From: Acidimicrobiaceae bacterium
Lineage (GTDB): Bacteria > Actinomycetota > Acidimicrobiia > Acidimicrobiales > RAAP-2
DNA length: 35,385 bases
NCBI GenBank assembly: GCA_025350565.1
Contig: JANXXO010000090.1
Location: forward strand, 1 to 35,385
Direction of reading: 5' to 3'
Every line of letters begins with the position of its first letter. Positions within the stretch are counted from its first letter, which is position 1. Shown in pieces: positions 25,525 through 29,678 of this stretch. The notes beneath the pieces are model-generated. The model did not search any database, was not told the origin of the DNA, and saw only the letters and a program-made list of their open reading frames with translations. Made by a program: the position numbers and the translations under genes.

Positions 25525-26478
25525 ATGGACTCTCGCTACGGCATCACCATCCCCTTCGACGGCGTTCCCCTTCTCGAACATAAAGAATGGTTCCACAAAA
25601 TCGCTGACCTCGGTTACACCGACCTCTGGTCAGCCGAAGTCGACGGCGCGGACGGCTTCACGCCCTTACTGCTCGCCGCGATTTGGGAACCGCGACTCCA
25701 GTTGGGGGTCGCGGTCACGCCGGTCTTCACGCGGGGCGCTGGCCTGTTGGCGATGAGCATCGCGGCCGTCGCTGAGGTCGCCGAGGGCCGCTTCACCATG
25801 GGTCTGGGCGCGTCCAGCGAGCCAGTCGTACAGCGCTGGAACGGGGTCAAATACGAGAAGCCCTACGCGCGAACGCGTGACGTCCTTCGCTTCGTGCAGC
25901 GCGCACTCGACGGCGAGAAGATCGACGAAGTCTTCGAGACCTTCGAGGTGCACGGCTTTAAACTCTCGCGTCCGGTGGCCGTTCGTCCGCCGCTCCTCCT
26001 GGGAGCTCTTCGCCCGGGCATGCTGCGTCTCGCCGGCACCCAGGCCGACGGCGCCATCCTCAACTGGCTGAGCGCCGACGATGTGGCGCAGTGTCGCGCG
26101 GAGGTGGGCGAAGGAAAGACCATTGCCGCGCGTCTCTTCGTCATCCCCACGCCGGACGCCGAGACGGCGCGCTTGATCGGGCGACGGATGATTTCGTCGT
26201 ACCTGACCGTGACGGCGTACGCCGAATTCCACCGCTGGCTCGGTCGCGGACCGGCGTTGCAGCCCATGTGGGACGCCTGGGCCGCCGGGGACCGCAAGCT
26301 CGCCAACGCCGTCATTCCCGATTCGGTGGTGGACGAACTGATTATTCACGGATCCTACGAAGCCTGTCGCGACCACGTCGCTCGCTACATCGACGCCGGC
26401 GTACACATTCCGACGTTGGCGATCATCCCCTTCGGCGTCGACCTCCAGGAGGCGGTCGAAGGTTTGGCGCCGCGTTAG
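25525..26478 (+). CDS. LLM-class oxidoreductase (probably F420-dependent)
   Basis: A 317-residue TIM-barrel luciferase-like monooxygenase. The pattern YGITIPFDGVPLLEHKEWF, LGYTDLWSAEVDGADGFTPL, LGVAVTPVFTRGAGLLAMS, GRFTMGLGASS and RPPLLLGALRPGMLRLAG matches actinobacterial F420-dependent LLM enzymes. Members oxidise or reduce diverse substrates with F420 or FMN, and the substrate here is unknown. The C-terminal SYEACRDHVARYIDAGVHIPTLAIIP is typical. ATG 25525 is clear. Its TAG overlaps the stop of the convergent acyl-CoA dehydrogenase by two bases, leaving no room for a separate terminator. Confidence 0.85.
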   Translation: MDSRYGITIPFDGVPLLEHKEWFHKIADLGYTDLWSAEVDGADGFTPLLLAAIWEPRLQLGVAVTPVFTRGAGLLAMSIAAVAEVAEGRFTMGLGASSEPVVQRWNGVKYEKPYARTRDVLRFVQRALDGEKIDEVFETFEVHGFKLSRPVAVRPPLLLGALRPGMLRLAGTQADGAILNWLSADDVAQCRAEVGEGKTIAARLFVIPTPDAETARLIGRRMISSYLTVTAYAEFHRWLGRGPALQPMWDAWAAGDRKLANAVIPDSVVDELIIHGSYEACRDHVARYIDAGVHIPTLAIIPFGVDLQEAVEGLAPR

Positions 26479-27785
26479 ACCGATTCGGCCTCGAGGAACT
26501 CCAGCATGCCGGCAAACTTCTCCTTCGCGGCGATGGTCCGGGCCGGAATGAACTCACTGGGCACTTCGGACGGCGAGTAGTTCTTCAAGGCGTGGCGGGC
26601 CACGGTCTGGCGATGCACTTCGTCGGGACCGTCGTAGATACGCGCCGCGCGAGCCCATCGGTACATCCGCTCAAGCGGCATGTCGGTGGAATAGCCGAGC
26701 GCTCCGTACGTCTGAATCGCCCGGTCGATCACGTTGTGCAAAACGGTCGCGCCGTAGTACTTGATCATGGCGATTTCGTCGCGCGAGGCCGATGCCCCCA
26801 CCTGGTCCATCTTCCACGCGGCGTGCAGGGTCATCAATCGTGCGGCGTGCATTTCGGCGCGACTGTCGGCGATCCAGTTCTGCACGGTCTGCTTCTCGGA
26901 CAGTAACGAGCCGTGCGTGAAGCGACTGACCGCGCGCTCGCACATCATGTCGAAGGCCCGCTGACTCTGTCCGAGCCAGCGCATGCAGTGGTGAATTCGA
27001 CCCGGTCCGAGTCGCGCCTGGGCGAGCAAGAAGCCCTAGCCTTCCGGTCCAATAAGGTTCTCGCCCGGCACTCGCACGTCCACGTAGCGAATCTCGGCGT
27101 GATTACCAAAACGTCCGTAGTGGTTGTCGGGGTCGTCCATTGAACCCACGTCGCGCACGATGTCGACGCCAGGGCTGTCCACGGGCACCACGAACATCGA
27201 CGAGCCTTGGTAGGGGTGCACGTCGGGATTGGTGACGGCCATCACGACCAGAATGTCGGCCACCGATCCGTTGGTCGTGTACCACTTGTGACCGTTCAGA
27301 ACCCACTCGTCACCGTCTTTGGTGGCGCGCGTCTTCAAGAGACGGGGGTCACTGCCCGCCGTCTCGGGTTCGGTCATCGAGAAACCGGAGCGAATGGTGC
27401 CGTCGAGGAGAGGCTGGAGCCATCGTTCGCGGATGTACTCCTGACCCGTCATCTCCATGCCCGCCGCCAACAGCTCGGCGTTGCCCGAGTCCGGCGCGTT
27501 ATTGCCAAAGACGACCGGACCGTAGGGCGTCTTACCGAGGATCTCGTGCATGAGGCCGAGGCGAACTTGCCCGAAGCCCATGCCACCCAAGTCGGTGGGT
27601 AGGTGGGCCGCCCAAAGGCCGCGCTCTTGCACCTCGCGCTGCATGGGCTTAATGAAGGCGAGTGCTTGATCGTGGCTCAGGTCCAGCGTCTCGATCGGGG
27701 TGATCTCTTCTTGCACAAATTCACGCATCCAGGCGAGTTGCTTTTCGAATTCCGGTTCCGTTTCAAAGTCCCAGGCCATTGGCAC
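26475..27785 (-). pseudogene. acyl-CoA dehydrogenase interrupted by an in-frame amber codon
   Basis: A full-length acyl-CoA dehydrogenase (about 436 codons) is present in one frame, but codon 250 is TAG (27036-27038). The N-terminal part has FSMTEPETAGSDPRLL (FAD/acyl-CoA binding), WVLNGHKWYTTNG and VPGENLIGPEG. After the TAG the same frame continues GFLLAQARLGPGRIHHCMRWLG, and later RAIQTYGALGYSTDMPLERMYRWARAARIYDGPDEVHRQ. At the TAG the family usually has Q or E (GPEGQGF / GPEGEGF), one base from TAG. The protein would be cut before the C-terminal helical domain, so a truncated product should be inactive. It is either a point nonsense mutation or a sequencing error. ATG 27785 is preceded by GGAAGG. 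Confidence 0.88.
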
Positions 27786-27858: not shown

Positions 27859-27882
27859 GGACGACGGAACGAAAGGAACGAC

Positions 27883-28398
27883 GTGGCGAAGAAAAATGCG
27901 ACGAAAGACCGCACCGCACCGGTGCGCATCGGCGTCGTCGACACTATGTTCGCGCGCTACGACATGGGTGGCGCCGCCCGCGCCGAGTTGACGTCATGCC
28001 CCGGCTACGACGAGACGTTCGTCGTGGTCGCACGCACCGTACCGGGTTTCAAGGACCTGGCGGTCGCGGCCAAGAACATGATCGAGCGCGACGGGTGCGC
28101 CATCGTGATCGCTCTCGGTATGCCCGGCAGCGCCGCGGTCGACAAAGTCTGCGCGCACGAGGCCTCCCAGGGCATCATGCTGGCCCAGCTGATGACCTCC
28201 ACCCCCATCCTGGAGGTCTTCGTCCACGAGGACGAATCAGACGACCCCGAGGTGCTCGCCAAGGTCTTCGACGACCGCTCACGCAAGCACGCCAGGAACG
28301 CGTACTGGATGCTCTTCGACCCCGACCAGCTCGCTCGTCGCGCCGGTCAGGGCGTTCGCCAAGGCTTCGACGACGCCGGGCCACTCACGACGCGTTGA
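27883..28398 (+). CDS. ribC: archaeal-type riboflavin synthase
   Basis: A 171-residue protein matching the archaeal riboflavin synthase family (RibC, paralogous to lumazine synthase and unrelated to the bacterial two-domain RibE). Conserved blocks are all present: GVVDTMFARYDM (about 17-28), RTVPGFKDLAVAAK (51-64), GCAIVIALGMPG (71-82), DKVCAHEASQGIMLAQLM (87-104), EVFVHEDE (111-118) and GQGVRQGFDDAGP (155-167). The enzyme dismutates two 6,7-dimethyl-8-ribityllumazine molecules to riboflavin. GTG 27883 follows AAAGGA. The neighbours (acyl-CoA dehydrogenase, LLM oxidoreductase) are flavoprotein-type enzymes, but no other rib gene is in the window. A short lysine-rich N-terminal extension precedes the conserved core. 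Confidence 0.9.
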   Translation: MAKKNATKDRTAPVRIGVVDTMFARYDMGGAARAELTSCPGYDETFVVVARTVPGFKDLAVAAKNMIERDGCAIVIALGMPGSAAVDKVCAHEASQGIMLAQLMTSTPILEVFVHEDESDDPEVLAKVFDDRSRKHARNAYWMLFDPDQLARRAGQGVRQGFDDAGPLTTR

Positions 28399-28469: not shown

Positions 28470-29678
28470 ATGCCCGAAGCCGTCATTGTTGCGACCGGTC
28501 GCACCCCCATCGGGCGGGCCTTTAAGGGCACCCTCGTCGACATGCGCCCCGACGACCTGACCGCCCTCGTCGTACGCGCCGTGCTCGCCAAGCTGCCCTC
28601 CCTCGACCCCCAGAGCGTCGAAGACTTGATGGTCGGCTGTGGTCAACCGGCCGGTGAGTCGGGCTTCAACATTGCGCGCGTGGCCGCCCTCCTCGCCGGA
28701 CTGGACAACGTGCCGGGCGTCACGGTGAATCGCTACTGCTCGTCGTCTCTGCAAACCATTCGCATGGCCGCCCACGCCATCCGCGCCGGCGAAGGTGACG
28801 TGTTCATCGCGGCCGGTGTCGAAACCGTCTCGCGATTCGCCAGCGGTGCCTCCGACAGCGGCAAGGCGACCAATCCGTTGTTCAGTGACGCCATGGAACG
28901 CACGGCCAAGCGGTCCGAGCGCGTCGGCGAGACGTGGAGCCCGCAACCGGGCCTCCCCGACATCTACATCGCGATGGGCCAGACCGCCGAGAACGTGGCC
29001 GAGTACGAGCAGGTCTCTCGCCGAGAGATGGACGAGTTCGCGGTGCGCAGTCAAGAGTTGGCGGTCGAGCACCAGGCGAACGGCTTCTTCGAACGCGAGA
29101 TCGTGCCCGTCACCTTGCCCGACGGCACCGTCATCACCAAAGACGACGGCCCGCGCGCCGGGACGACTTTGGAGAAGCTCTCGTCGCTGCAGCCCGTCTT
29201 TCGCGAAGGTGGCACGATCACCGCCGGCAACGCCTGTCCGTTGAACGACGGGGCCGCCGCGGTCGTGGTCATGAGTGACACGAGGGCCAAGGAGCTCGGC
29301 ATCAAACCGCTGGCGCGCATTGTGGCGAGCGGCGTGAGCGGACTCAACCCCGAGATCATGGGACTCGGTCCCGTCGACGCCTGTCGCCAGACGTTGCGAC
29401 GCGCCGGCATGACCATTGACGACATTGACTTGGTGGAGATAAACGAGGCCTTCGCGGCCCAAGTGATCCCGAGCGCCAAGCACCTCGGCATCACCCTGGA
29501 CAAGCTCAACATCCGCGGCGGGGGCATCGCGCTCGGCCACCCGTTCGGTATGACCGGAGCGCGCATCATGACCACGCTGCTCAACTCGCTCGAGGACTCC
29601 GGGAAGCGCTTCGGCATGGAGTCCATGTGCGTCGGTGGTGGCCAAGGAATGGCCATGATCGTCGAACGCCTGGACTGA
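28470..29678 (+). CDS. acetyl-CoA C-acyltransferase (thiolase)
   Basis: A 402-residue thiolase, full length. The nucleophile is C90 in VNRYCSSSLQ. NEAFAAQ, GGGIALGHPFGMTGAR (H357) and CVGGGQGMAM (C387) complete the active site. This subgroup catalyses acyl-CoA cleavage or condensation in beta-oxidation, and the biosynthetic or degradative direction is not evident. ATG 28470 has a perfect AGGAGG five bases upstream. A 16-bp dyad operator in the leader suggests repression by a TetR-like regulator responding to acyl-CoA. The acyl-CoA dehydrogenase nearby, on the other strand, fits a fatty acid or sterol side-chain theme. It ends in a strong hairpin. Confidence 0.93.
   Translation: MPEAVIVATGRTPIGRAFKGTLVDMRPDDLTALVVRAVLAKLPSLDPQSVEDLMVGCGQPAGESGFNIARVAALLAGLDNVPGVTVNRYCSSSLQTIRMAAHAIRAGEGDVFIAAGVETVSRFASGASDSGKATNPLFSDAMERTAKRSERVGETWSPQPGLPDIYIAMGQTAENVAEYEQVSRREMDEFAVRSQELAVEHQANGFFEREIVPVTLPDGTVITKDDGPRAGTTLEKLSSLQPVFREGGTITAGNACPLNDGAAAVVVMSDTRAKELGIKPLARIVASGVSGLNPEIMGLGPVDACRQTLRRAGMTIDDIDLVEINEAFAAQVIPSAKHLGITLDKLNIRGGGIALGHPFGMTGARIMTTLLNSLEDSGKRFGMESMCVGGGQGMAMIVERLD

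Follow-up and report, generated by a model that had tools for sequence, protein, structure and literature searches.

Enzymes of the archaeal RibC family dismutate two molecules of 6,7-dimethyl-8-ribityllumazine, the product of the lumazine synthase RibH, to yield riboflavin and 5-amino-6-ribitylaminouracil, which is the RibH substrate. The same name has another meaning in the E. coli nomenclature, where RibC is the classical trimeric enzyme. The same usage is found in mycobacterial papers (PMC12855090). The archaeal riboflavin synthase is a homopentamer whose sequence is unrelated to that of the trimeric enzyme (PMC10366380). Classical trimeric RibE (TIGR00187) performs the same reaction at the same pathway step as RibC but is unrelated to it in both sequence and fold. 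That RibE is the normal bacterial enzyme, as stated in the preliminary description of the present locus, holds true but is overstated, as roseoflavin-producing Streptomyces have already been reported to carry RibE2, an archaeal-like, additional synthase copy attributed to horizontal transfer (PMC11039241). In the part of the literature searched, no report was found of a bacterial lineage that relies on RibC alone.

Identity and genomic setting of the ribC product

The window, i.e. the whole stretch of 35,385 nucleotides analyzed, belongs to an Acidimicrobiales metagenome-assembled genome (MAG) of 2.05 Mb in 98 contigs, with 93.8% completeness and 1.45% contamination. It encodes an archaeal-type RibC at 27883..28398 on the + strand, in a gene with a GTG start, a TGA stop, and a product of 171 aa. 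A ribosome-binding-like stretch read in the sequence (GAAAGGAAC; 27872..27882, +) abuts the GTG start. In an NCBIfam profile search the protein matched TIGR01506 (ribC_arch) with 183.2 bits (E 2.7e-54; model positions 2-151 of 151), the curated equivalog cut-off being 100.55 bits; the classical RibE model TIGR00187 was not among the models matched. The nearest solved structure was that of the riboflavin synthase of Methanocaldococcus jannaschii (PDB 2B98/2B99; E 2e-49), also of the TIGR01506 family, which shares all signature blocks with the window protein and 53.6% identity over 153 residues (2B98). The blocks DT.FAR, TVPG.KDL, ALGMPG, DxxCAHEA, EVFVHE, and RQGxxDAGP were present in the window RibC and nearly invariant across 24 homologues. 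Comparison of the window gene with 14 homologues yielded dN of ~0.12-0.24 and dS of ~0.8-2.5, a ratio well below 1 that indicates purifying selection. The similarity far exceeds what chance would give, the gene is conserved, and the observation is confirmed. The preliminary description had reported an archaeal-type RibC in a bacterial genome on the strength of the blocks ALGMPG, DKVCAHEAS, EVFVHEDE, and RQGFDDAGP; all four are in the open reading frame, and the profile match upholds the assignment. Judged by its family and by its 54% identity to the solved archaeal enzyme, the protein would assemble as a homopentamer. Unlike the M. jannaschii gene, ribC is found here in a bacterial host with bacterial ribD-ribBA-ribH, and within this genus its product carries a short basic tail. 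This Lys/Arg-rich N-terminal extension of ~14 residues (27883-27925) precedes the conserved core and is genus-specific (window, L132, L135, and L176), being absent from other families.

The genes flanking ribC are bacterial in kind according to Pfam, as the preliminary description had also noted. An acyl-CoA dehydrogenase gene, assigned by Pfam and synteny, is divergent from ribC (26475..27785, -), a luciferase-like flavin-dependent monooxygenase conserved as a neighbour within the genus is encoded at 25525..26478 (+; PF00296), and a thiolase of the acetyl-CoA acetyltransferase family is encoded at 28470..29678 (+; PF00108/PF02803), the latter being the conserved downstream neighbour in the family. 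The other scanned neighbours were a zinc alcohol dehydrogenase and one gene without a Pfam match. The acyl-CoA dehydrogenase gene contains an in-frame TAG at 27036-27038 (-), where 26 of 36 relatives have Ser; this is either an assembly error or a sign of a young pseudogene. Scans of the window and of six loci surrounding rib genes detected no Rfam element, e.g. an FMN riboswitch.

This gene arrangement is widespread among the uncultured soil and freshwater bacteria that make up the RibC-bearing group. Of the 80 named loci in Acidimicrobiales MAGs, most have acyl-CoA dehydrogenase and/or thiolase genes adjoining ribC, the acyl-CoA dehydrogenase doing so in families f1, f9 (L122), and f112 (L179, L180) and in genus g262 of family f101 (L184, L185). 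Neighbours shared across families suggest a single gain at one site followed by vertical descent. Every named relative (71-86% identity) was a MAG of actinobacterial or Acidimicrobiales assignment, although depositors had labelled a few as Acidobacteria.

Distribution of RibC and RibE and the closed ribE slot

The genome search for ribE and ribH suggested in the preliminary description returned no classical RibE (TIGR00187 profile; genome 93.8% complete) and a ribH in one operon with ribD and ribBA. This operon (fmt-rpe-ribD-ribBA-ribH) is located away from ribC, and its ribD and ribBA share 4 bp at the position that ribE occupies in most sister families. Both flanks of this slot were visible in 21 of the 23 RibC genomes examined, and in these 21 the ribD-ribBA gap ranged from -4 to 170 bp and enclosed no ribE. 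A gap of 609-774 bp containing ribE was found in 6 of the 7 RibE-bearing genomes examined, including G654, which has both synthases. The exception, G644 (f101/g368, L205), encodes RibE on another contig and has a closed ribD-ribBA slot (125 bp), a pattern that would fit a relocated or re-acquired RibE.

Within the genus, none of the 36 congeners had a TIGR00187 match. RibC was above cut-off in 30 of the 37 genomes, own genome included, and RibH was present in 36 of 37. One further genome, G028, carries ribC split into two frames (L126:4476-4980), reflecting a frameshift or a sequencing error. Six congeners had no RibC match (G001, G008, G012, G013, G015, and G018). In G001 and G008 the thiolase neighbour lies at the very edge of a contig, so that ribC was evidently lost to an assembly gap. 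This explanation covers those two only; of the other four, G013 is 80% complete, and G012, G015, and G018 are small genomes (1.4-1.5 Mb; 96-97% complete) that lack RibC as well as RibE. Of these three, G012 and G015 have kept ribD-ribBA-ribH with no recognisable synthase (L124 and L127 are among the loci of the small congeners), while G018 also lacks RibH, which suggests riboflavin auxotrophy.

When 298 genomes of the order were compared, 45 had RibC above cut-off, 180 had RibE above cut-off, and 74 had neither. The two occurred together in a single genome (G654), compared to 27 expected under independence (Fisher p ~2e-19, a descriptive value that counts related genomes and is uncorrected for phylogeny). 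RibC was found in nine families (f1, f9, f28, f106, f110, f112, f115, f126, and f127), in one genus (g262) of f101, a family in which RibE was seen in other genera, and as a divergent copy in f14. The f14 protein, from G654 (L190:7462-7959), has 45% identity, scores 120 bits, and reads CAGDAS in place of CAHEAS, and its genome also has a normal RibE operon. Such divergence may mean that this copy does something else, possibly a new function; the open frames scanned near it had no NCBIfam match.

The preliminary description had left it open whether this lineage replaced its synthase or carries both. With RibE missing from the own genome and from all congeners, and with the slot empty, replacement is well supported and the carrying of both is not. 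The best reading of these sequence comparisons is that, through non-orthologous displacement, RibC would act alone as riboflavin synthase in nine or more families of the Acidimicrobiales. The gene very probably encodes the host's riboflavin synthase, by family homopentameric and dismutating, which would have displaced the unrelated trimeric RibE after gain of ribC and loss of ribE in an ancestor of several families. RibBA and RibD would provide the two precursors, RibH would join them, and RibC, whose putative activity gains indirect support from its mutual exclusion with RibE across the order, would complete riboflavin. In the presumed course of gain and loss, ribC would have been acquired beside the acyl-CoA dehydrogenase gene in the ancestor of several Acidimicrobiales families, and ribE would have been lost from between ribD and ribBA, leaving a closed-up ribD-ribBA-ribH elsewhere in the genome.

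Origin of the gene and alternative readings

In trees built without RibH, M. jannaschii fell inside or next to the bacterial RibC set, with long branches and unstable placement, and a constraint holding the Acidimicrobiales RibC together was not rejected (p-AU 0.59). Rooting with RibH set the bacterial RibC (Acidimicrobiales, Streptomyces, and G654) apart from M. jannaschii at only 90/72. Since the archaeal RibC compared was one sequence, that of M. jannaschii, the donor cannot be named and the direction of transfer is not settled; an archaeal origin of the Acidimicrobiales ribC is likely but unproven. Of the two histories offered in the preliminary description, an overlooked bacterial branch of RibC is borne out by its presence in at least nine Acidimicrobiales families, while a transfer from archaea was not established.

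A different origin is possible, if doubtful, for a working synthase of this kind: bacterial RibC may be old or may have moved between bacteria, archaea not being the direct donor. Such a history agrees with the displacement of RibE by RibC in all respects except origin. It draws on the separation of all bacterial RibC from M. jannaschii in the RibH-rooted tree, but the support there is modest, the archaeal sequence single, and the branches long. Furthermore, the other Actinomycetota genomes sampled all lacked RibC, an argument for a late gain; among 345 genomes sampled from the class and 396 from the phylum, every RibC above cut-off lay within the Acidimicrobiales. The viral contigs and phages searched had no RibC.

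The displacement of RibE by RibC was also weighed against an accessory role. The RibE2 proteins of S. davaonensis, S. berlinensis, and S. camelliae (plasmid NZ_CP115301) are bacterial members of the same family with 61% identity to the window RibC, and the roseoflavin-type locus of S. camelliae was the source of the one bacterial RibC in the plasmid collection. A similar accessory synthase, raising flavin supply beside a normal RibE, would fit this identity, the location of ribC outside the rib operon, and the flavoenzyme genes nearby. However, Streptomyces RibE2 is an extra synthase in the rosB antibiotic cluster, whereas here RibC is apparently the sole synthase and sits among housekeeping genes. 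The co-occurrence with RibE and with rosB/ribXY typical of the roseoflavin RibE2 was not observed: RibE was absent from the own genome and any congener tested, the ribE slot is closed, and the scanned neighbours include no ros genes. An accessory role is therefore improbable and was rejected.

It is less probable still that the window protein is a RibH-like lumazine synthase paralogue with no riboflavin synthase function. RibH (TIGR00114) is a distant homologue sharing the RibC fold, and the only Pfam family matched by the window protein was DMRL_synthase (PF00885, 52 bits). In contrast, TIGR00114 gave 28.6 bits, below its cut-off of 84.6 bits, vs. 183 bits for TIGR01506. The genome encodes its own normal RibH elsewhere as a separate gene, with ~26% identity to the window RibC in the best segment (E 0.07). 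In a tree of 14 RibC and 8 RibH proteins the families split at 100/100, with the window gene and M. jannaschii on the RibC side; a placement inside the RibH family, named in the preliminary description as counter-evidence, was not recovered. Lumazine synthase identity was rejected on the basis of this tree and the profile scores. Finally, a binning artefact, in which an archaeal or foreign contig had entered the MAG and RibE was merely missing from the assembly, has a negligible probability even for a 93.8% complete source genome of 98 contigs, and MAG contamination was rejected, as ribC and its neighbours recur in dozens of MAGs generated by separate studies, the flanks of ribC are bacterial, and RibE was found in 0 of 37 genus genomes with the operon slot closed. 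In addition, ribC occurs in assemblies of 3-7 contigs and also on contigs 0.5-1.2 Mb long, so that binning error is ruled out as the general cause.

Implications for riboflavin biosynthesis in the Acidimicrobiales

Differences were also observed in RibH, in a loop that may bear on cage formation. The loop motif GTKAG/GGKSG was found in the RibH of four RibE families (f2, f6, f10, and f14) and was absent from all RibH examined from RibC genomes (L119 and others), with insertions in f9, f28, and f106. The motif is missing from other RibE families too, and the correlation between loop and RibC is confounded by phylogeny. One scenario, unlikely and put forward tentatively, is that a single ancient acquisition of archaeal RibC replaced RibE, upon which a RibE-loaded cage would have been unneeded and RibH would have drifted from the cage-forming loop. 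As for the genomes with neither synthase, either certain lineages no longer make riboflavin or they have another route or synthase.

The enzyme family and its job are known and the host is unusual; this is a lineage-wide instance and no new kind of system, and standard annotation would already name ribC correctly. What is new is an archaeal-type enzyme that appears to be its host's only synthase, together with a ribE slot that has closed. The displacement of RibE by RibC would be a clean case in which an essential biosynthetic enzyme gave way to a non-orthologous one, the two classes being otherwise assigned to different domains, and in which the empty slot in the operon, the new location of the synthase gene, and the RibE-bearing sister families are all visible. 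The textbook and review statement of a trimeric synthase in bacteria (PMC10366380) needs an exception. Furthermore, auxotrophy calls from genomes that seek RibE alone would wrongly score these lineages as riboflavin auxotrophs.
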